Below, one piece after another: positions 5,371 to 48,629 of a stretch of 64,000 nt of DNA. The position numbers and the translations under genes are program-made. The notes beneath the pieces were generated by a model, which was not told the DNA's origin, did not search any database, and saw only the letters and a list, made by a program, of their open reading frames with translations. Position 1 is the first letter of the stretch; each line of letters starts with the position of its first letter. The DNA is from Neoarius graeffei (taxonomy: Eukaryota; Chordata; Actinopteri; Siluriformes; Ariidae), in the NCBI RefSeq assembly GCF_027579695.1, contig NC_083583.1:19940257-20004256 (forward strand), written 5' to 3'.

Positions 5371-6312
5371 ATGGGGAAGACTGCTGACTTGACTGTTGTC
5401 CAGAAGATGATCACTGATGCCCTCCACAAGGAGGGTAAGCCACAAAAGGTCATTGCTGAAAAGGGTGGCTGGAAAAGGTGCACAAGCAACAGGGATGGCC
5501 ACAGTCTTGAGAGGATTGTCAAGAAAAGTTGATTCAAGAACTTGGGAGAGCTTCACAAGGAGTGGACTGAGGCTGGTGTCAGTGTATCAAGACTCATCAC
5601 GAACAGACATCTTCAAGAAAGGGGATACAACTTTCGCATTCCTAATATCAAGCTACTCCTGAGCCAGAGACAATGTCAGAAGTGTCTTATCTGGGCTAAG
5701 GAGGGAAAGAAATGGACTGTTGCTCAGTGGTCCAAAGTCCTCTTTTCAGATGAAAGTACATTTTGCATTTAATTTGGAAATCACGGTTCTAGAGTCTGGA
5801 GGAAGAGTGGAGAGGCACAGAATCCAAGGTGTTTGAAGCCCAGTGTGAAGTTTCCACAGTCTGTGATGATTTGGGGTGCCATGTCATCTGCTGGTGTTGG
5901 TCCACTGTATTTTATCAAGTCCAAAGTCAACACAGCCATCTACCAGGAGATTTTAGAGCACTTCATGCTTCCATCTGCTGACGAGCTTTTTGGAGATGCT
6001 GATTTCCTTTTCCAGCAGGACTTAGCACCTACCCACAGTGCCAAAACTACTACCAAATGGTTTGCTGACCATGATTTTACTGTGTTTGATTGGCCAGCCA
6101 ACTTGCCTGACCTGAACCCCATAGAGAATCTATGGGGTATTGTCAAGAGGAAGATGAGAAACACCCGACCCAAAAATACAGATACGCTGAAGGCCACTAT
6201 CAAAGCAACCTGGGCTTCAATAACACCTCAGCAGTGCCACAGACTGATCACCTCCATGCCACACCACATTGATACAGTAATTCATGGTAAAGGAGCCCCA
6301 ACCAAGTATTGA
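5371..6312 (+). pseudogene. Tc1-like transposase, inactivated
   Basis: Starts MGKTADLTVVQKMI at 5371. Three frame pieces follow one another: N-terminal helix-turn-helix region to 5532; middle piece 5542-5772 with FSDEST, carrying the first catalytic D; and C-terminal piece 5833-6312 with WGAMSSAGVGP, QQDLAPTHSAK (second D) and DLNPIENLWG (final E). Spacing fits DD34E. It is broken by a stop after VKKS, by frame changes near 5535 and by a stop after STFCI at 5772. It would have moved the surrounding element by cut and paste; it cannot do so now. Confidence 0.85.
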
Positions 6313-9269: not shown

Positions 9270-12200
9270 AATTAAAGCCGCAAGCGGCCTCGACGGGCCC
9301 TCGCGCCAGCGGCCAAGGGGGGCGGGGGCATGCGTCCCCGCGAAATACCTTCCACAGCTTCTTCGGCAAGAGACATTACTCCCACAATGGCGACAAAGCA
9401 CAGAACTGGACACATGGCAACAATAGGGTCCCGCACTGTACGGTGCTCGGGGGGCGCTATAGAGGCCCTGAGGCCCGCCTGGATCTGGGCTTCTGGTTCT
9501 CAGTAGCGGTGGCAGTCTAAGAAAAAGGAGCCAAATTTCGTGCGTCGTCGACCATGGCAAGCGCCCCAATCAGGGTCTTGTAAAGAGTTTGCCTGCCAAG
9601 TTTGACAAATCAGAAGCTGCAATATCATTTTCGCCATAACCAGCACCCCCAGGGGCGAAAGTGCACAAAATTTGGCGAATATGTCAGGTGAGCTATGAAG
9701 AGTTTGCGTATGAAGTTTGATGACAATTGAGTAAATAGAAGACGAGATATAGATTTTTGAAGAATAAATTATTTGGTTTTTTCCCATGTCAGTAGGTGGC
9801 GCTATGCTGTACATGAGCGATTATGAGTTGGAAAAATAAGTGTCTACAACAGCAACGTACTATCACAAGGTAGTGGTGTGAAGGAAAAGCATGATGGAAT
9901 TATTTACCAAAAACCCGTTTTGGAGCAATTGCGTCGGCCAAAAACAGCGCCCCCCATGGACGAAAATTCCCAAAATGTGGTATACATGACAGGGGAGGTA
10001 GTAAGAGGGTGGCTGTGAAGTTTGACCAAGTTTGAGGAAAGATTGGATTTTTTGCCCAAAAATAGCGCCCCCAGTGGCGAAAGTGCACAAAATTTGGCGT
10101 ATATGTCAGGTGAGCTATGAAGAGTTAGCGTATGAAGTTTGATGACAATTGAGTAAATAGAAGATGAGATATAGATTTTCGAAGAATAAATTTTTTGGTT
10201 TTTCCCATGTCAGTAGGTGGCGCAATGCTGTACATGAGCGATTATGAGTTGGAGAAATAAGTGTCTACAACAGCAACATACTATCACAAGGTAGTGGTGC
10301 GAAGGAAAAGCATGATGGAATTATTTACCGAAAACCCGTTTTGGAGCAATTGCGTCGGCCAAAAACAGCGCCCCCCATGGACGAAAATTCCCAAAATGTG
10401 GTATACATAACATGGGAGGTAGTAAGAGGGTGGCCGTGAAGTTTGACCAAATTTGAGGAAAGATTGGATTTTTTGCCCAAAAATAGCGCCCCCAGTGGCG
10501 AAATATCACAGAAATTGGGTAACATGTCAGAAGCCCAATGAGTGATTTGCGTGTGAAGTATGAGCAGTTTTGAGCAATCAGAAGATTTGTTATGAATTTT
10601 TAAGCATGTAAAATTTTGCATCGAAAATTGATTGACGTATAACTTCTGAACGGTTTATCCTACGTGAAACGTATTTAGTAACTTTTGTCAGCCATGTCTG
10701 TAGATGATGTGTATCAATTTTGGTGACATTCCTATGAACGGTCTAGGAGGAGTTGCGCCGTCTTCGAGGCCATGCATTTCGCACAAAAGTGAAATTACCT
10801 CACTTCCTGTTGGGCGTGGCTAATGCATTGGCATTACAATTTTGTCCGGCTTAGTGAGATACATATGCGTACCAAATGGCATGCCACGACTACAAACTAC
10901 ACGGCACCCAGGCACCTTAATGCGGGAGGCCAAAATCACAACGACTTAGGGGGCGCTATAGAGGCCCTGAGCCCCGGCCAAGATTGGGCTTTTGGTTCTG
11001 AGTAGCGGTGGCAATTCTCGGAACTGGTGCCAAATTTGGTGCGTTTTCGCCCATGGCAAGCGCCCCGAAAATGGCCCAACAGCGGAGAAAAATAAAGAAG
11101 AAGAAGAAGAAGACGGAAGAATAATTAAAGCCGCAAGCGGCCTTGACGGGCCCTCGCGCCAGCGGCCAAGGGGGGCGGGGGCATGCGTCCCTGCGAAAAA
11201 CCTTCCACAGCTTCTGCGGCAAGAGACATTACTCCCACAATGGCGACAAAGCACAGAATTGGACACATGGCAACAATAGGGTCTCGCACTTCGTGCGTTG
11301 TCGACCATGGCAAGCGCCTCAATAAGGGTCTTGAAAAGAGTTTGCTTGCCAAGTTTGACAAATCAGAAGCTGCAATATCATTTTTGCCATAATCAGCACC
11401 CCCAGGGGCGAAAGTGCACAAAATTTGGCATATATGTCAGGTGAGCTATGAAGAGTTTGCGTATGAAGTCTGATGACAATTGAGTAAATAGAAGATGAGA
11501 TATAGGTTTATGAAGAATAAATTTTTTGGTTTTTCCCATGTCAGAAGGTGGCGCTATGCTGTACATGAGCGATTATGAGTTGGAAAAACAAGTGTCTACA
11601 ACAGCAACGTACAATCACAAGGTAGTGGTGTGAAGGAAAAGCATTATGGAATTATTTACCAAAAACCCGTTTTGGAGCAATAGCGTGGGCCAAAAACAGC
11701 GCCCCCCATGGACGAAAATTCCCAAAATTTGGTATACATGACATGGGAGCTAGTAAGAGGGCGGCCGTGAAGTTTGACCAAATTTGAGGAAAGATTGGAA
11801 TTTTTGCCCAAAAATAGCGCCCCCAGTGGCGAAACATCACAGAAATTGGGTCACATGTCAGAAGCCCAATGAGTGATTTGCGTGTGAAGTATGAGCAGTG
11901 TTGAGCAATTAGAAGATTTGTTATGAATTTTTAAGCATGTAAAATTCTGCATTGAAAAATGATTGACGTATAACTTCTGAACGGTTTAGCAAACGTGAAA
12001 CGTATTTAGCAACTTTTGTCAGCCATGTCTGTAGATGATGTGTATCAATTTTGGTGACGTCCCTATGAACGGTCTAGGAGGAGTTGCGCCGTCTTCGTGG
12101 CCATGCATTTCGCACAAAAGTGAAATTACCTCACTTCCTGTAGGGCGTGGCTAATGCATTGGCAATACATTTTTGTCCGGCTTGGTGAGATACATATGCG

Positions 12201-13655: not shown

Positions 13656-14205
13656 AAAACCAGTTAAACAAATGAGACAAAAATATTATACTTGGTCATT
13701 TATTTATTGAGGAAAACAATCCAATATTACATATCTGTGAGTGGCAAAAGTATGTGAACCTTTGCTTTCAGTATCTGGTGTGACCCCCTTGTGCAGCAAT
13801 AACTGCAACTAAACGTTTGCGGTAGCTGTTGATCAGTCCTGCACACCGGCTTGGAGGAATTTTAGCCCATTCCTCCGTACAGAACAGCTTCAACTCTGGG
13901 ATGTTGGTGGGTTTCCTCACATGAACTGCTCGCTTCAGGTCCTTCCACAACATTTCGATTGGATTAAGGTCAGGACTTTGACTTGGCCATTCCAAAACAT
14001 TAACTTTATTCTTCTTTAACCATTCTTTGGTAGAATGACTTGTGTGCTTAGGGTCGTTGTCTTGCTGCATGACCCACCTTCTCTTGAGATTCAGTTCATG
14101 GACAGATGTCCTGACATCTTCCTTTAGAATTCACTGGTATAGAGGATTTCGACGTGACGTCACAGGTCACGTGACGCCCCGGTGTCCGCCATTTTGAAGG
14201 TCAAG

Positions 14206-15165: not shown

Positions 15166-16409
15166 CTAGGCCGGATAAAATACTCGACAATGAGACTTCG
15201 TCATGATCAACAGTGTATCGCTACTGGTAGTCGCCATATTTGTGACCGTCAAAATGGCGGCATAAATATTGTCGCTATGGAAACAATGACGTAGGCCGAA
15301 ATCCTCTATAATTCAGAATTAATTGCTCCATCAATGATGGCAAGCCGTCCTGGCCCAGATGCAGGAAAATGGGCCCAAACCATGATACTACCACCACCAT
15401 GTTTCACAGATGGGATAAGGTTCTTATGCTGGAATGCAGTGTTTTCCTTTCTCCAAACATAACGCTTCTCATTTAAACCAAAAAGTTCTATTTTGGTCTC
15501 ATCCATCCTCAAAATATTTTTCCAATAATCTTCTGGCTTGTCCACGTAATCTTTAGCAAACTGCAGACGAGCAGCAATGTTCTTTTTGGAGAGCAGTGGC
15601 TTTCTCCTTGCAACCCTGCCATGCACACCATTGTTGTTCAGTGCTCTCCTAATGGTGAACTCATGAACATTAACATTAGCCAATGTGAGAGAGGCCTTCA
15701 GTTGCTTAGAAGTTACCCTGGGGTCCTTTGTGACCTCGCTGACTATTACATGCCTTGCTCTTGGAGTGATCTTTGTTGGTCGACCACTCCTGGGGAGGGT
15801 AACGATGGTCTTGAATTTCCTCCATTTGTACACAATCTGTCTGACTGTGGATTGGTGGAGTCCAAACTCTTTAGAGATGGTTTTGTAACCTTTTCCAGCC
15901 TGATGAGCGTCAACAACGCTTTTTCTGAGGTCCTCAGAAATCTCCTTTGTTCATGCCATGATACACTTCCACAAACGTGTTGTGAAGATCAGACTTTGAT
16001 AGATCCCTGTTCTTTAAATAAAACAGGGTGCCCACTCACACCTGATTGTCATCCCATTGACTGAAAACACCTGACTCTAATTTCACCTTCAAATTAACTG
16101 CTAATCCTAGAGGTTCACATACTTTTGCCACTCACAGATATGTAATACTGGATCATTTTCCTCAATAAATAAATGACCAAGTATAATATTTTTGTCTCAT
16201 TTGTTTAACTGGGTTCTCTTTATCTACTTTTAGGACTTGTGTGAAAACCTGATGATGTTTTATGTCATATTTATGCAGAAATATAGAAAATTCTAAAGGG
16301 TTCACAAACTTTCAAGCACCACTGTAGTATGTAGAATGGTAGTTCTATAGCTATGATGTTAGATCAAACCTTGTTCCAGATGTTTGGGCTGAAAGACATT
16401 TCTGGTTAA

Positions 16410-23835: not shown

Positions 23836-24210
23836 CCCACCTTATAGGCCGTACCACCTACACAGGTGTACTTAATGATCTAGCCCAGGGGTCATCAAAC
23901 TACAGCCCGCGGGCCGACTCTGGCCCACCCCACCCCCCTTTGACCGGCCCCCAGCCCCTCTGCCCCCCACCACTTGAACCGGCCCTATGAGGCAATCCCC
24001 AAAAGTGGTCATGGCCTATTTTTTTTAAAAATTGCTTTATGGAAAATAATAACATGTCTGCATCTTGTATTTTGTTGATTTTATCAATTAAAATTGATAT
24101 TTAGTTATAAAATGAACTATTCATATTTTCCGAATTTTCGTCATATGCTTGCGATCAAGCAGTGACAGGCAGCGCACGCGCAGAGAACTGTCAGTGTTCA
24201 GGACAGCAAA

Positions 24211-24771
24211 ATGGCTAGCGGTCAGCGAAAAGCTGACAGAGAGTGCAGAGTTTTTAAAGAACAGTGGACCACCGATTATTTTTTCGTTCAGTGTAAGGAC
24301 CGTGCAGTTTGTCTTGTATGTAAAGAAAGTGTGTCGGTTTTCAAAGAATACAATCTTCACTATGAAACCCGCCACAAAGAGTATGCCAGTTTGCGAGAGC
24401 AAACAAGAGAAGACAGGATTTGGAGGATGAAATGCGGACTGGCTGCACAACAGAATGGATTCCTTCGCCAAACCCAGATCAACCAGGCTGCTGTCCGAGC
24501 TAGCTATAAGGTAGCTCACCTACTAGCTACCCATGGAAAGCCGTTTACTGATGGGGACTTTGTTAAAGTATGCATGCTTGCTGTGGCCGAGGAGGCGTGT
24601 CCCGACAAGAAGGATGCGCTCAACGCGGTGAGTCTCTCTATGACCAGGCGAACCGAAGATTTGGGGGACAGCGTGTCTGACCAGCTGAATGAGGAAGTGT
24701 CAGAATTCGAGTTTTTTGCTTTGGCCGTGGATGAGAGCAATGACGTGCAGGACACAGCACAACTGCTGTGA
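24211..24771 (+). pseudogene. Truncated hAT transposase (GTF2IRD2/ZBED-like)
   Basis: 186 residues starting MASGQRKADRECRVF. A zinc finger is formed by C34, C37, H50 and H55 (VCLVC ... HYETRH). Then comes a helical region with ATHGKPFTDGDFVKVCML, a phrase typical of the transposase-derived GTF2IRD2 and FAM200/ZBED5 proteins. The frame ends soon after FFALAVDESND, where D174 is the first catalytic aspartate. The second D, the C/H-rich insertion and the C-terminal dimerisation domain are missing, against a usual length near 600 residues. Confidence 0.75.
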
Positions 24772-25115: not shown

Positions 25116-26095
25116 GTGGATGTAGTCGTGGGGTATGTAGTCGTGGGGGATGTAGTCGGGGGGGGGGATATAGTGGGGGGGGGATATAGTGGGGGGGGGA
25201 TATAGTAGTGGGGATATAGTAGTGGGGATATAGTGGGGGGGATATAGTGGGGGGGATATAGTGGGGGGGATATAGTAGTGGAGATATAGTAGGGGGGGAT
25301 ATAGTGGGGATATAGTAGTGGGGATATAGTGGGGGGGATATAGTAGTGGGGATATAGTGGGGGGGGATATAGTAGGGGGGGATATAGTGGGGGGGATATA
25401 GTAGTGGGGATATAGTGGGGGGGATATAGTGGGGGGGGATATAGTAGTGGGGATATAGTAGGGGGGGATATAGTGGGGGGAATATAGTAGTGGGGATATA
25501 GTGGGGGGGATATAGTGGGGGGGATATAGTGGGGGGGATATAGTAGTGGGGATATAGTGGGGGGGATATAGTAGGGGGGGATATAGTGGGGGGGATATAG
25601 TAGTGGGGATATAGTAGGGGGGGATATAGTGGGGGGGGATATAGTAGGGGGGATATAGTGGGGGGGATATAGTAGTGGGGATATAGTGGGGGGGGATATA
25701 GTGGGGGGGGATATAGTAGTGGGGATATAGTAGGGGGGGATATAGTGGGGGGAATATAGTAGTGGGGATATAGTGGGGGGGATATAGTGGGGGGGATATA
25801 GTGGGGGGGATATAGTAGTGGGGATATAGTGGGGGGGGATATAGTAGGGGGGGATATAGTGGGGGGGATATAGTAGTGGGGATATAGTAGGGGGGGATAT
25901 AGTGGGGGGGGATATAGTAGGGGGGATATAGTGGGGGGGGATATAGTGGGGGGGGATATAGTGGGGGGGATATAGTGGGGGGGGATATAGTGGGGGGGGA
26001 TATAGTAGTGGGGGATATAGTGGGGGGGGATATAGTAGTGGGGGATATAGTGGTGGGGATATAGTGGTGGGGATATAGTAGTGGGGAATGGCTGT
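25116..26095. repeat. GGATATAGTGGGGGG minisatellite
   Basis: About 60 units of 14-17 bp, GGATATAGT(A/G)GTGGG or GGATATAGTGGGGGG with variable G runs. Units alternate in a longer pattern, so higher-order duplications are likely. G runs of 4-9 on the + strand every unit could form G-quadruplexes. The 360-codon open frame on the minus strand (PPLYPHYYIPPTISPP) is a by-product of the repeat. Confidence 0.95.
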
Positions 26096-27131: not shown

Positions 27132-27198
27132 TACTAGAGCGGCAGCTACAATTATCGACACCTTTTCAGATTTACCAATAATAAACAATTTTACAAAG

Positions 27199-27358
27199 GT
27201 GAGTTTCAGTTACAACAGTTATTATTGCTTAATTAATCAACTGGAAGACCCGCCTCGCCCTTTGATCTTGTTGTCTGATGACGCAGCTCGTTGCCCGAGA
27301 TGGAATTTTTTTCAGCATGATCAGCAATTTCAGGAAAACCTGGACGTTATTATCGCAG
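27199..27358 (+). CDS. Unassigned open frame in the left arm, possible exon
   Basis: The frame contains LEDPPRPLILLSDDAARCPR and then WNFFQHDQQFQENLDVIIAG, ending at a good splice donor, GCAGGTGAGCATGG, at 27354-27367. A second donor-like site, AAAGGTGAGTTTCAG, precedes it near 27196. I do not recognise the protein. Position just inside the terminal repeat suggests the first exon of the parent transposon's gene; a captured host exon is the alternative. Confidence 0.3.
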
Positions 27359-27890
27359 GTGAGCATGGTGGAAAGATCATGGGCATGTTTTTACTGATCA
27401 AACTCACTGATATTTCATGATCTCCTTGTTGAAACCTATTTTTTTTTCTTACTCTTTCATTTAACAGTCGCCATTTTGTATCTAAACGCGCGTTTGAGAA
27501 GTCACGTGAGGTGTCGATAATAGTGATCCACCATTATCGACACCCTGTGGAATTAAGTGGCATTTACAGCTGTTATGGATCGATCTTTGCGTAACATTGT
27601 GGAAGTAGATGAAGTACTTTAAAAAATAAAAGTGCTGTGATTTATAATAATTTTTTTCTGATTCATAACAGAATAGAATATTTATAGAGTATTTGGACTC
27701 TTATTACAATAAATAGAATTAGACCAGAATTAAATTCCTAGCATATTAAATATTACATGCTTGAAATATTTAGATTTTTTTTTTGCAGTTTGTTGTAAAT
27801 ATCTACCGCATATTGCAATATCAGTAGAAATTTTATATTTTGGTTCGAGGAATGACATGCGACCTCTGAACTGGATTTTGGTGTCTCCTC

Positions 27891-28708
27891 TAACCCGGTA
27901 CGGAAAGTATGAACCGGAACGGGACAGTACGTGACAATAACGTTACCTTTTCTAAATATTCAGGGGTTTCATACTTAAAATCTTGTACTCACACGCATCA
28001 CTGTCATGTATTCTTTGATTATCCAGTATTATTATCTCCCGTCACATTGTATTAATGTTATATTCACGATATTTTCAACTGAAATTGATCTAAAAGCCCG
28101 GAACTCCAATTACGGAATATACCTCGGAGTGACGTCACAAAGAAATCCCGTGTTGAGAAAACTGATATAGAAACATTCATGTAGAAAGGCTTTACTGTAG
28201 TTGTAAGTTACCAGAAGATTCAGATTTGTATTTTATGTGCAACGAATGTAAAATGTGGTTTCACACTGATTGTGAAAATGTGGGTCATAAAACAGAAGCA
28301 CAGATCAAAAAAGATAAGAACCTGAAATTGTAAAATAGATGAATAAATAGTCGTTAAGTTATATGTTTTGACAATAAAACAACTGAACAATACATTTGGT
28401 TTTTCTTCTAACTTTATTTATCATACGTGACGGGACGGGTTCATCTATAAAGGCGGGATGACTAACGTAAGTACCGATGAATAAAACGGTGGACGTGACG
28501 GATGTCTCTGTGAAACTGGAACAAAAAAGGTAAGATTATACATTATGTAAATAAATGTCACAAAAATGGTATTGCGGGACGGAACACTTGTTATACATGG
28601 AACGGAACAGCATATAAAAACCCGGAAGGCAAACGTAAGAAAATACGTGACGCCACATTAAAATACGTGACGGTACTGTTCCATCCCGTTCTGTTCTGTA
28701 CCGGGTTA
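27891..28708 (+). mobile_element. Nested TIR element carrying a PHD-like finger
   Basis: Inverted ends TAACCCGGTACGGAA and TTCTGTACCGGGTTA, with further CGGAACGGGACAGTACGTGAC-like matches inside (ACGTGACG is repeated many times). It is 818 bp long. A target duplication is not resolved. It contains the finger frame at 28166-28332 and an AT-rich centre. The superfamily is unknown. Confidence 0.55.
28166..28332 (+). pseudogene. PHD-type zinc-finger fragment
   Basis: The frame reads YCSCKLPEDSDLYFMCNECK then MWFHTDCENVGHKTEAQI, ending at TAA after KNLKL. C-x-C, then C-x2-C, then WFH-x2-C is the ordered ligand pattern of the first part of a PHD finger, including the conserved aromatic before the histidine. 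The final C-x2-C pair is absent. PHD fingers read histone tails; in transposons they have been found fused to transposases or beside them. No start codon upstream is convincing, so this is probably an internal exon. Confidence 0.6.
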
Positions 28709-29069
28709 TGGGAGATGTGTGGATTTTCATGTGGTTACAATCTCAAGTGTCTGTTGACATTTATTGGTAAACTACAAAACTAGAAATTAATACAAACAAC
28801 GAACGATTAACAAAAAATGTGATCTACGAAAATACTTAGTGGGTAGAAAGTGGAACAAAAAGATTCTGTTACAGGTTAAACATTATCAGTTCATTTGTTC
28901 ACAAACATTAGAATTACTTCCTCATTTACATCAGCACCGACATTGATATATTTATAGAACAGATATTTTGTACTAAATATAAATCTATGTAAAACAAATT
29001 AAGTAAAAACTATATGTTTTGCTAACTTAATACCACATACCGATTTTTTTTAATAAAATCATCTGGATG

Positions 29070-32000
29070 TCAATGACCGTGGACAAAAGGCGCCGAAGAC
29101 CGTGGACAAAAGGCGTCGAAGACCGTGGACAAAAGGCGTCGAAGACCGTGGACAAAAGGCGTCGATGACCGTGGACAAAAGGCGTCGATAATTGTACAAC
29201 GGTGCCGATGACCGTGGACAACAGGCGCCGATGACCGTGGACAAAAGGCGTCGATAATTGTACAACGGCGTCGAAGACCGTGGATAAAAGGCGCCGATGA
29301 CCGTGGACAAAAGGCGTCGAAGACCGTGGACAAAAGGCGTCGAAGACCGTGGACAAAAGGCGTCGAAGACCGTGGACAAAAGGCGTCGATAATTGTACAA
29401 TGGCGCCGATGACCGTGGACAACAGGCGCCGATGACCGTGGACAACAGGCGCCGATGACCGTGGACAAAAGGCGTCGATAATTGTACAACGGCGTTGAAG
29501 ACCGTGGACAAAAGGCGTCGATGACCGTGGACAAAAGGCGTCGATAATTGTACAACGGCGCCGATGACCGTGGACAACAGGCGCCGATGACCGTGGACAA
29601 AAGGCGCCGATGACCGTGGACAAAAGGCGTCGAAGACCGTGGACAAAAGGCGCCGAAGACCGTGGACAAAAGGCGTCGAAGACCGTGGACAAAAGGCGTG
29701 GATAATTGTACAACGGCGCCGATGACCGTGGACAACAGGCGCCGATGACCGTGGACAAAAGGCGTCGATAATTGTACAACGGCGTCGAAGACCGTGGATA
29801 AAAGGCGCCAATGACCGTGGACAAAAGGCACCGATGACCGTGGACAAAAGGCGCCGAAGACCGTGGACAAAAGGCGTCGAAGACCGTGGACAAAAGGCGT
29901 CGATAATTGTACAATGGCGCCAATGACCGTGGACAACAGGCGCCGATGACCGTGGACAACAGGCGCCGATGACCGTGGACAACAGGCGCCGATAATTGTA
30001 CAACGGCGTTGAAGACCGTGGACAAAAGGCGTCGATGACCGTGGACAAAAGGCGCCGATGACCGTGGACAAAAGGCGTCGAAGACCGTGGACAAAAGGCG
30101 TCGAAGACCGTGGACAAAAGGCGTCGATAATTGTACAACGGCGCCGATGACCGTGGACAACAGGCGCCGATGACCGTGGACAACAGGCGTCGATAATTGT
30201 ACAACGGCGTCGAAGACCGTGGACAAAAGGCGTCGATGACCGTGGACAAAAGGCGCCGATGACCGTGGACAAAAGGCGTCGAAGACCGTGGACAAAAGGC
30301 GTCGAAGACCGTGGACAAAAGGCGTCGAAGACCGTGGACAAAAGGCGTCGATAATTGTACAACGGTGTCGAAGACCGTGGACAAAAGGCGTCGATAATTG
30401 TACAACGGCGCCGATGACCGTGGACAACAGGCGCCGATGACCGTGGACAACAGGCGCCGATGACCGTGGACAAAAGGCGCCGATGACCGTGGACAAAAGG
30501 CGCCGATGACCGTGGACAAAAGGCGCCGATGACCGTGGACAAAAGGCGCCGATGACCGTGGACAAAAGGCGCCGATAATTGTACAATGGCGCCGATGACC
30601 GTGGACAACAGGCGCCGATGACCGTGGACAACAGGCGCCGATGACCGTGGACAAAAGGCGTCGATAATTGTACAACGGCGTTGAAGACCGTGGACAAAAG
30701 GCGTCGATGACCGTGGACAAAAGGCGTCGATAATTGTACAACGGCGCCGATGACCGTGGACAACAGGCGCCGATGACCGTGGACAACAGGCGCCGATGAC
30801 CGTGGACAACAGGCGCCGATGACCGTGGACAAAAGGCGTCGAAGACCGTGGACAAAAGGCGTCGAAGACCGTGGACAAAAGGCGTCGATAATTGTACAAT
30901 GGCGCCAATGACCGTGGACAACAGGCGCCGATGACCGTGGACAACAGGCGCCGATGACCGTGGACAACAGGCGCCGATAATTGTACAACGGCGTTGAAGA
31001 CCGTGGACAAAAGGCGTCGATGACCGTGGACAAAAGGCGCCGATGACCGTGGACAAAAGGCGTCGAAGACCGTGGACAAAAGGCGTCGAAGACCGTGGAC
31101 AAAAGGCGTCGATAATTGTACAACGGCGCCGATGACCGTGGACAACAGGCGCCGATGACCGTGGACAACAGGCGTCGATAATTGTACAACGGCGTCGAAG
31201 ACCGTGGACAAAAGGCGTCGATGACCGTGGACAAAAGGCGCCGATGACCGTGGACAAAAGGCGTCGAAGACCGTGGACAAAAGGCGTCGAAGACCGTGGA
31301 CAAAAGGCGTCGAAGACCGTGGACAAAAGGCGTCGATAATTGTACAACGGTGTCGAAGACCGTGGACAAAAGGCGTCGATAATTGTACAACGGCGCCGAT
31401 GACCGTGGACAACAGGCGCCGATGACCGTGGACAACAGGCGCCGATGACCGTGGACAACAGGCGCCGATGACCGTGGACAACAGGCGCCGATGACCGTGG
31501 ACAAAAGGCGCCGATGACCGTGGACAAAAGGCGCCGATGACCGTGGACAAAAGGCATCGATAATTGTACAATGGCGCCGATGACCGTGGACAACAGGCGC
31601 CGATGACCGTGGACAACAGGCGCCGATGACCGTGGACAAAAGGCGTCGATAATTGTACAACGGCGTTGAAGACCGTGGACAAAAGGCGTCGATGACCGTG
31701 GACAAAAGGCGTCGATAATTGTACAACGGCGCCGATGACCGTGGACAACAGGCGCCGATGACCGTGGACAACAGGCGCCGATGACCGTGGACAAAAGGCG
31801 TCGAAGACCGTGGACAAAAGGCGTCGATGACCGTGGACAAAAGGCGTCGATAATTGTACAACGGTGCCGATGACCGTGGACAACAGGCGCCGATGACCGT
31901 GGACAAAAGGCGTCGATAATTGTACAACGGCGTCGAAGACCGTGGATAAAAGGCGCCGATGACCGTGGACAAAAGGCGTCGAAGACCGTGGACAAAAGGC

Positions 32001-33580
32001 GTCGAAGACCGTGGACAAAAGGCGTCGATAATTGTACAATGGCGCCGATGACCGTGGACAACAGGCGCCGATGACCGTGGACAACAGGCGCCGATGACCG
32101 TGGACAAAAGGCGTCAATAATTGTACAACGGCGTTGAAGACCGTGGACAAAAGGCGTCGATGACCGTGGACAAAAGGCGTCGATAATTGTACAACGGCGC
32201 CGATGACCGTGGACAACAGGCGCCGATGACCGTGGACAAAAGGCGCCGATGACCGTGGACAAAAGGCGTCGAAGACCGTGGACAAAAGGCGCCGAAGACC
32301 GTGGACAAAAGGCGTCGAAGACCGTGGACAAAAGGCGTCGATAATTGTACAACGGCGCCGATGACCGTGGACAACAGGCGCCGATGACCGTGGACAAAAG
32401 GCGTCGATAATTGTACAACGGCGTCGAAGACCGTGGATAAAAGGCGCCAATGACCGTGGACAAAAGGCACCGATGACCGTGGACAAAAGGCGCCGAAGAC
32501 CGTGGACAAAAGGCGTCGAAGACCGTGGACAAAAGGCGTCGATAATTGTACAATGGCGCCAATGACCGTGGACAACAGGCGCCGATGACCGTGGACAACA
32601 GGCGCCGATGACCGTGGACAACAGGCGTCGATAATTGTACAACGGCGTTGAAGACCGTGGACAAAAGGCGTCGATGACCGTGGACAAAAGGCGCCGATGA
32701 CCGTGGACAAAAGGCGTCGAAGACCGTGGACAAAAGGCGTCGAAGACCGTGGACAAAAGGCGTCGATAATTGTACAACGGCGCCGATGACCGTGGACAAC
32801 AGGCGCCGATGACCGTGGACAACAGGCGTCGATAATTGTACAACGGCGTCGAAGACCGTGGACAAAAGGCGTCGATGACCGTGGACAAAAGGCGCCGATG
32901 ACCGTGGACAAAAGGCGTCGAAGACCGTGGACAAAAGGCGTCGAAGACCGTGGACAAAAGGCGTCGAAGACCGTGGACAAAAGGCGTCGATAATTGTACA
33001 ACGGTGTCGAAGACCGTGGACAAAAGGCGTCGATAATTGTACAACGGCGCCGATGACCGTGGACAACAGGCGCCGATGACCGTGGACAACAGGCGCCGAT
33101 GACCGTGGACAAAAGGCGCCGATGACCGTGGACAAAAGGCGCCGATGACCGTGGACAAAAGGCGCCGATGACCGTGGACAAAAGGCGCCGATAATTGTAC
33201 AATGGCGCCGATGACCGTGGACAACAGGCGCCGATGACCGTGGACAACAGGCGCCGATGACCGTGGACAAAAGGCGTCGATAATTGTACAACGGCGTTGA
33301 AGACCGTGGACAAAAGGCGTCGATGACCGTGGACAAAAGGCGTCGATAATTGTACAACGGCGCCGATGACCGTGGACAACAGGCGCCGATGACCGTGGAC
33401 AACAGGCGCCGATGACCGTGGACAACAGGCGCCGATGACCGTGGACAAAAGGCGTCGATAATTGTACAACGGCATCGATAACTGTGGACAAAAGGCGTCG
33501 ATAACTGTGGACAAAGGCGTCGATAACTGTGGACAAAGGCGTCGATAACTGTGGACAAAAGGCGTCGATAACTGTGGAAT
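29070..33580. repeat. 23/20-bp satellite-like array with TIR-derived unit
   Basis: About 200 units. Type A is 23 bp (CGTCGAAGACCGTGGACAAA plus AGG, with GCCGATGACCG variants). Type B is 20 bp (CGTCGATAATTGTACAACGG). The B unit contains GTCGATAATTGTA, identical to the inner part of the terminal repeats. At the right edge (33470-33580) units read CGTCGATAACTGTGGACAAA, intermediate between the two. Longer blocks of about 0.7-1 kb recur, with GGTGTCGAAGACC marking 30360, 31347 and 33001. Both unit lengths equal 2 modulo 3, so all minus frames stay open for over 1000 codons without coding meaning. Confidence 0.95.
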
Positions 33581-33746
33581 GGGATCACGTGATCTGATAC
33601 ACTAAGTAATCAGGAATCGACTCATTTTTTCCCAGTGGAAGTTTGAGTAATTATTCGTGCACAATTTATGTACTGAAAGTCTTTTCTACTTTTGCAACGG
33701 CCAAAAGATCGTTAAGGTGTCGATAATTGTAGCCGCCGCTCTAGTA

Positions 33747-47489: not shown

Positions 47490-48629
47490 CAGTTAGGTCC
47501 ATAAATATTTGGACAGAGGCAACATTTTTCTAATTTTGGTTCTGTACATTACCACAATGAATTTTGAACAAAACAATTCAGATGCAGTTGAAGTTCAGAC
47601 TTTCAGCTTTAATTCAGTGGGTTGAACAAGATTGCATAAAAATGTGAGTAACTAAAGCATTTTTTAAAACACAATCCCTTCATTTCAGGGGCTCAAAAGT
47701 AATTGGACAAATTAAATAATTGTAAATAAAATGTTCATTTCTAATACTTGGTTGAAAACCCTTTGTTGGCAATGACTGCCTGAAGTCTTGAACTCATGGA
47801 CATCACCAGACGCTGTGTTTCCTCCTTTTTAATGCTCTGCCAGGCCTTTACTGCAGCGGTTTTCAGTTGCTGTTTGTTTGTGGGCCTTTCTGTCTGAAGT
47901 TTAGTCTTTAAAAAGTGAAATGCATGCTCAATTGGGTTGAGATCAGGTGACTGACTTGGCCATTCAAGAATATTCCACTTCTTTGCTTTAATAAACTCCT
48001 GGGTTGCTTTGGCTTTATGTTTTGGGTCATTGTCCATCTGTATTATGAAACGCCAACCAATCAGTTTGGCTGGATTTGAGCACACAGTTTGTCTCTGAAT
48101 ACCTCAGAATTCATCCGGCTGCTTCTGTCCTGTGTCACATCATCAATAAACACTAGTGACCCAGTGCCACTGGCAGCCATGCATGCCCAAGCCATCACAC
48201 TGCCTCTGCCGTGTTTTACAGATGATATGGTATGCTTTGGATCATGAGCTGTACCACGCCTTCACCATACTTTTTTCTTTCCGTTATTCTGGTAGAGGTT
48301 GATCTTGGTTTCATCTGTCCAAAGAATGTTCTTCCAGAACTGTGCTGGCTTTTTTAGATGTTTTTTGGCAAAGTCCAATCTAGCCTTTTTATTCTTGAGG
48401 TTTATGAGTGGCTTGCACCGTGCAGTGAACCCTCTGTATTTACTTTCACACAGTCTTCTCTTTATGGTAGATTTGGATATTGATACGCCTACCTCCTGGA
48501 GAGTGTTGTTCACTTGATTGGCTGTTGTGAAGAGGTTTCTCTTCACCATAGGAAATTATTCTGTGATCATCCACTACTGTTGTCTTCTGTGAGTGTCCAG
48601 GTCTTTTTGCATTGATGAGTTCACCAGTG

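Follow-up and report, generated by a model that had tools for sequence, protein, structure and literature searches.

How a transposon comes to carry several kilobases of tandem repeats resembling its own ends, and whether such repeats do anything for it, are questions raised by an element in a 64,000-nucleotide stretch of DNA from the fish Neoarius graeffei (assembly GCF_027579695.1, contig NC_083583.1, positions 19,940,257 to 20,004,256 of the forward strand), here called the window. A first-pass annotation, made from these letters alone, described a transposon with terminal inverted repeats (TIRs) that had amplified its own terminal motif into a 4.5-kb array, possibly a bank of transposase-binding sites. 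Having compared the element with its relatives elsewhere in the genome, we consider it probable that it is a non-autonomous derivative of a pogo-type transposon, that a subterminal cassette already present in the family has grown recurrently and in place as a minisatellite, and that the long arrays are non-adaptive.

The window element and its array

The letters of the window bear out an element with terminal repeats and an array of units like its own motif, with details amended. It runs from 27137 to 33741, not from 27134 to 33744, and its terminal repeats align over 33 bp with one mismatch. Comparison of both ends of 18 copies, the window's included, showed a variable base just outside the inner TA (any of C, A, T and G on the left side), and the TA itself at 17 of the 18 left ends (the exception being L051; L and C numbers are our labels for loci and contigs) and at all 18 right ends. 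Because the flanking base varies while the TA persists, we place the target duplication at the TA inside CTAG; most of the end pairs had one end picked by a search pattern containing CTAG, so that only the unselected end is informative on this point. The TIR is 28 bp long (GAGCGGCRGCTACAATTATCGACACCTT, beginning GAGCGGC). Of the 31-bp terminal repeats first described at a TA site, the TA site stands but the length does not, nor does the outer TA (27132-27133 and 33745-33746), which is not general among family copies.

A tandem-repeat scan of the element returned one array, of 4.5 kb with units of about 23 bp, which splits into 201 complete units, followed by one that is partial. Of the complete units 42 are of A type, 20 bp long (GTCGATAATTGTACAACGGC being the main form, with 25 exact copies), and 159 belong to B type, 22-23 bp but mostly 23 (main forms GCCGATGACCGTGGACAACAGGC, GTCGAAGACCGTGGACAAAAGGC and GCCGATGACCGTGGACAAAAGGC). 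The 20-bp unit reported at first pass is present, though as the minority type. Segmental duplications are also seen, with a best base-level period of 2639 bp at 87% identity and exact duplicates of 600 bp. The 13-mer GTCGATAATTGTA occurs 35 times in the array and once more in each TIR; an exact 13-base match between the 20-bp unit and the 31-bp end has a chance expectation of about 1e-5. The sharing is upheld, but its exact length is partly coincidence, because a derived ...ATTGTAC (...ATTGTGG in the family's A unit) lengthened the match by one base. For the motif GGTGTCGATAAT the window yields 39 matches at one mismatch or fewer, where 0.24 would be expected, and every one of them lies within the element; the inverted pair that it forms in the left part was correctly noticed at first pass, one base short (27511-27544 instead of 27510-27544). 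Of the 18 left ends, 12 (L042, L046 and L050, for example) have a second TIR-like motif (CCATAATTATCGACACC or close to it) some 17 bp inward; the window copy belongs to the six that lack it.

Family copies, right-end cassettes and long arrays

Genome scans covered the 2.34-Gb assembly in 38 contigs. With three mismatches allowed at most, a 29-base pattern of the TIR matched 1423 places forward and 1540 in reverse (2,963 in all; reversed control, 0): the first-pass description stood or fell with the existence of further loci with these ends, and there are thousands. Exact scans of viral contigs for the TIR and for the unit gave no match with either. Our sample consists of 70 TIR seeds from the first 100 matches listed (30 + 40 loci), with 20 longer stretches around the first 22 seeds and one extra locus on C11 (L061). 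Most of the longer stretches share one layout (left end, left body, middle body, short cassette, right subterminal region, right end), and other insertions are frequent in them. Substitution distance from a majority built from the same copies is 3.5-6.4% in 23 of 24 entries (window, 5.1%), with L048 and L060 taken as one copy and L059, which offered 64 bases for comparison, excluded; this fits one amplification burst.

The cassette at the right ends is made of two units, A (GTGTCGATAATTGTGGAACG, 20 bp) and B (GTGTCGATAACTGTGGACAAAG, 22 bp), typically arranged A-B-A or as A alone, and shares GGTGTCGATAATTGT with the TIR. Of the 53 right ends sampled 43 have it, and so does the transposase-bearing copy described below. 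Counted by length and eye (L029 and L036 by length), the 43 readable cassettes divide into 14 of a single unit, 10 of two and 15 of three units (25 together), one of five (L075) and three long arrays, the last amounting to 7% (95% interval 1.5-19%) of this intact-TIR sample. The remaining 27 of the 70 seeds comprise 15 left ends, ten right ends with an interrupted or deleted cassette, in which the stretch read held no array, and two unclassified loci (L035, L078). Among copies, then, array length ranges at one and the same position from a single unit to long arrays, a comparison proposed at first pass.

The three long arrays in the TIR sample are L023 (= L051), L085 (at least 12 motifs) and L097 (at least 8 motifs, running off the stretch). 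In L051 the element measures 8.2 kb, of which 6.85 kb are repeats of a 42-bp A+B unit, located at the internal position that the array occupies in the window. In L085 (C7) the listed pattern matches start 6.9 kb inward of the right end; of this array the final 460 bases were read as letters, and no listed match falls in the 1.7 kb preceding them. A 25-base pattern spanning the B-to-A junction, with up to one mismatch, matched 963 and 828 places (control, 0), of which 100 were listed. Two clusters on C1, of 4.8 and 6.2 kb, were picked from these irrespective of ends and read at one edge each, the right side (clusters on C3, C7:81.4 Mb and C18 lay outside this reading); both run into the right subterminal region and the TIR. 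As L051, L085 and L097 were found via the TIR, only these two clusters (L102 and L103) test the association with ends independently. Every long array whose edge was read (window, L051, L085, L097, L102, L103) adjoins a right end at the same internal position, and among these arrays the satellite does not occur mainly outside such elements, the case that would have told against the first-pass annotation. The two C1 clusters, C1:2793683-2798450 (L103) and C1:2829132-2835289 (L102), lie about 31 kb apart in opposite orientation, and may reflect local duplication or local transposition.

Relatives that carry transposase sequence were also found: L048+L060, on C1, and a broken copy, L061. The former is about 11.3 kb long, with its left end at 101 and its right end region reaching to about 11432, and the short body of the family corresponds to it minus an internal block (left body to position 598, then from 595 on). 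Within this block an open frame of 654 aa encodes HTH_psq (E 3.2e-9), DDE_1 (8.4e-14) and PHD finger (5.9e-7) domains; HTH_Tnp_Tc5 reached only E 0.016, below the cut-off. L061 (C11) has part of the transposase, a broken segment covering residues about 202-411, collinear with a left end and a right end on its two sides, and L045 keeps two stretches of the inner sequence directly after its left body; these two loci tie inner sequence to the family. Of 2523 candidate places from a protein search of the genome, 68 were scored; among them are the complete frame of the query itself, numerous decayed fragments and, at 25-30% identity, more distant relatives. Since it has the ends of the transposase-coding element and lacks the gene, the window element qualifies as a non-autonomous derivative resembling a miniature inverted-repeat transposable element (MITE).

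By its sequence the family is pogo-type, within the IS630-Tc1-mariner group. In most families of the pogo superfamily TA is duplicated and the TIRs measure 40 bp or less; members encode HTH_psq and/or HTH_Tnp_Tc5 together with DDE_1 and a DDxD catalytic triad (PMC7386202). The family here likewise has a TA duplication, a TIR under 40 bp, and HTH_psq with DDE_1 (PMC7386202, PMC7325037); its catalytic positions include D193 and D301, and the spacing of the second and third is 35 residues, as in Passer and Fot (PMC7386202, PMC7325037). Unlike the superfamily as described there, it has an additional PHD finger ('PHD' occurs nowhere in the main text of PMC7386202 or PMC7325037), and its third catalytic residue is replaced in both copies read. 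The frame at L048 4649-6610 is uninterrupted despite the H at that position; the version with N is at L061 3596-3919. At about 11.3 kb L048+L060 exceeds the pogo range of 1.2-5.2 kb, but its length includes two nested elements, one Tc1-like and one THAP-bearing, as well as an internal duplication.

Other attributions were considered and set aside. Membership of the ISL2EU/PHIS superfamily (AT duplication, TIR usually starting GG) is excluded by the TA duplication, the GAG start and the transposase found. The THAP-domain open reading frame at L048 2430-2825 is excluded as a part of the family: it lies in a nested element whose empty site is seen in L045. That nested element spans L048 2085-4359, has the ends CCTTGACTTGCAA, and has a shortened relative at L046 5416-5684. 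L035/L059 was discarded as a transposase source, its TIR being followed by unrelated sequence and no such transposase being noticed among its frames; L059 (L035; C3:23762883) and L078 (C5:70298369), in both of which unrelated sequence follows a family TIR, may represent other subfamilies or broken copies. At L061 4040-4523 the right end region occurs two or more times in tandem within a single copy.

Growth in place or a maintained array

The claim that the element amplified its own terminal motif holds in that the unit is homologous to the TIR motif; it does not hold for the TIR itself, which was not copied into the array here, because most right ends, and the transposase-bearing copy, already hold a TIR-like cassette. 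The 20-bp unit of the window derives from A and the 23-bp unit from B, and the pre-existing cassette is what expanded. Units adjoining the right end of the array are still B-like, in agreement with the intermediate edge units noted at first pass, which we place at 33474-33578 rather than 33470-33580. The window's exact 20-mer (the 20-bp unit only) is present at 25 places in the assembly, all within the window array; as it is found in no other copy, the array probably grew in place.

The course of events that we envisage starts with internal deletion of a pogo-type DNA transposon, giving a MITE-like derivative whose cassette units would most likely be extra transposase-binding sites, as in other subterminal-repeat transposons. 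Being a head-to-tail repeat, the cassette behaves as a minisatellite, and in single inserted copies it would have grown where it stands, each time independently, starting from 1-3 units and reaching five or hundreds; slippage, unequal exchange and gap repair following excision are candidate routes. The long arrays would then most likely be non-adaptive by-products that no longer depend on transposition. Several observations count against this account. Seeds were chosen by near-exact TIR match, and the sample therefore favours well-kept ends. The outermost 12 bases at the right end of L048+L060 do not match, and the transposase gene could, strictly, be an old nested insertion common to L048 and L061. 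The third catalytic position is not D in either of the two copies read, but H in L048 and N in L061, so that an active transposase source was not seen. Growth in place is argued from private variants alone. Finally, L051 keeps the motif core better than the window does (no more than one mismatch in 249 of its 313 units), as a bank of binding sites would also predict.

Such a bank would consist of long arrays kept by selection, recruiting or titrating transposase or a host repressor, with greater mobility of the array-bearing copy or silencing of the family as the effect. Placement of the motif in both TIRs, in the second left-end copy, in the inner pair and in the cassette suggests a transposase-binding site; the units stem from this same motif, long arrays recur in several copies, and L051 retains the motif as just described. 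The window array, however, is decayed at its core: TCGATAAYTGT is exact in only 40 of 201 units, and 142 of the 201 have three or four mismatches in 11. Nor is the core spared in L051, where two core positions of the B units vary at 0.28 and 0.13 compared with 0-0.07 in the tail, and core and tail of the A units are equally variable (the first eight bases are constrained by the unit splitter, which leaves the later positions for this comparison). Long arrays are, moreover, rare (3 of 43 readable right ends), and the window 20-mer is private. Core decay in the window and the unspared core in L051 favour a by-product over a maintained bank, which we regard as unlikely. The bolder proposal, that the arrays are functional, with hundreds of pogo transposase sites serving as sinks or nucleation points that control the family, whether by titrating transposase or by attracting a transposase-derived host protein, seems to us distinctly improbable. 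Were it true, a pogo-born satellite would have been caught at many stages, in a sequence-independent parallel to centromeric satellites, which perhaps gained a site for a pogo-derived protein. We looked for a CENP-B box in the unit; the 17-bp box matched cassette, TIR and array stretch no better than it matched 500 shuffles.

Base composition bears on another possibility, that whatever its origin the array is now a CpG-island-like or heterochromatin-forming block. The window array has 567 CpG, with observed/expected 1.61 versus 0.58 in the rest of the window; the L051 array has 1.34 versus 0.81 in the rest of its locus. Changes in the window units relative to the family unit are mainly from A/T to G/C (602 of 2370 A/T cells, against 73 of 1968 G/C cells, these being counts of units and not of events). 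In L051 the changes run the opposite way (66 against 249, in 300 of 313 units), so that the bias is not a property of the whole family, and GC-biased gene conversion in a recombining array, with which the bias in the window is compatible, would give the same picture; we find little likelihood in a chromatin element. Least of all do we credit a satellite that existed first and was captured later by the transposon. Capture is the origin proposed, according to a review, for the miDNA4 repeat discussed below, but here the unit shares homology with the TIR of its own element, and short cassettes occupy the position of the array at 43 of the 53 right ends sampled as well as in the copy that bears the transposase. 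Both C1 arrays picked irrespective of ends, too, join the right end of an element.

Known systems and feature coordinates

The first-pass remark that no named system like this is known in fish needs qualifying: close precedents exist outside fish, in miDNA4, Xstir, Tetris and Galileo. Among the open-access papers listed in our searches, judged by title and start of abstract and with most subscription papers outside their scope, none described a pogo MITE of fish in which the terminal motif forms arrays. miDNA4 is a Tc1/mariner MITE of Xenopus tropicalis whose repeat occurs as a single monomer or as a variable-number array (PMC9659126, PMC12628747). miDNA4 and the present family are alike, by description, in being vertebrate Tc1/mariner-type MITEs with an internal repeat that varies among copies from one monomer to a long array; they differ in that capture of a pre-existing tandem repeat is proposed for miDNA4, whereas our unit is homologous to the TIR, and in that a transposase-bearing relative was found here. 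Xstir consists of tandem repeats derived from the Xenopus MITE Xmix, found as MITE, array or both (PMC9659126, PMC12628747), the source being the TIR in one of these reviews and internal sequence in the other. It too is a tandem repeat of MITE-derived sequence, but its proposed origin is the joining of neighbouring elements, whereas the arrays here lie inside single elements.

In the Tetris foldback element of Drosophila virilis and its TIR-220 satellite, internal repeats share 37 bp with the outer TIR domain (PMC4079207); as here, the internal tandem repeats are related to the TIR, vary in number and expand to satellite arrays. Tetris, however, has long foldback TIRs and units of about 220 bp, and no transposase was found for it (PMC4079207), whereas our family has 28-bp TIRs and 20-23-bp units on one side only. 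Galileo, also of Drosophila, has internal tandem repeats with extra transposase-binding sites (cited in PMC4079207); it is foldback-like with a THAP-domain transposase, unlike the HTH_psq/DDE_1 protein here. The foldback class itself, with long TIRs and tandem repeats on both sides, is excluded for our family by its 28-bp TIRs and an array at the right end only. In corals it is the MITEs themselves, the CMITEs, that are arrayed in tandem (PMC2872659). With miDNA4, Xstir, Tetris and the CMITEs as precedents, the kind of event is already known; what is new, within the literature searched, is that the setting is pogo and includes a relative bearing the transposase, that unit and TIR are homologous, and that expansion has recurred at a single position.

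The birth of satellite DNA is a long-standing question. In this family the start (1-3 units), an intermediate stage (five) and the final stages (up to hundreds) all stand at one homologous position, in copies that are many, dispersed and similarly diverged, and there is a transposase-coding relative as well; with such a graded series the rate, direction and base bias of array growth become measurable, and binding of the units by transposase testable.

Table. Features of the element in the window, with the evidence for each
Feature	Position	Strand	Basis
Target-site duplication TA, left, inside CTAG	27135..27136	.	18 copies compared
Left TIR, 28 bp, GAGCGGCAGCTACAATTATCGACACCTT	27137..27164	+	end alignment, 18-copy comparison
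Left body of non-autonomous element, common to other genomic copies	27165..27879	+	blastn vs 20 loci
Internal inverted pair of motif GGTGTCGATAAT	27510..27544	.	motif scan
Unrelated nested element, 840 bp, inverted ends around TAACCCGGTAC	27880..28719	.	copy comparison
Middle body, adjoins array	28720..29068	+	blastn vs 20 loci
Minisatellite array, orientation as right end	29069..33578	+	tandem-repeat scan, unit splitting
Edge units near family B unit GTCGATAACTGTGGACAAAGG	33474..33578	+	unit splitting, cassette comparison
Right subterminal region, common to family right ends	33579..33713	+	locus comparison
Right TIR, 28 bp	33714..33741	-	end alignment, 18-copy comparison
Target-site duplication TA, right	33742..33743	.	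18 copies compared
			

The nested element of the table is flanked by an 8-bp duplication, TGGATTTT, whose two copies are at 27872-27879 and 28720-28727. In several other family copies (L041 and L054, for example) the left body passes directly into the middle body, without this insert; another, rearranged copy of the insert lies at L055 2763-3904.

Elsewhere in the window, an array of a 14-bp unit, GGGGGGGATATAGT, in about 65 copies, occupies 25161-26087, just outside the element, and a 421-bp unit is present at 9642-10503 in two tandem copies that are 96% alike. Decayed Tc1-like transposase frames lie at 5773-6312, 15306-15950, 13768-14130 and 47741-48103; the two that were scanned have DDE_3 and HTH_Tnp_Tc3_2/HTH_SB domains, and the other two were judged by eye. 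A 201-aa frame at 24166-24771 has a zinc finger of Spin-doc type (zf-C2H2_12).

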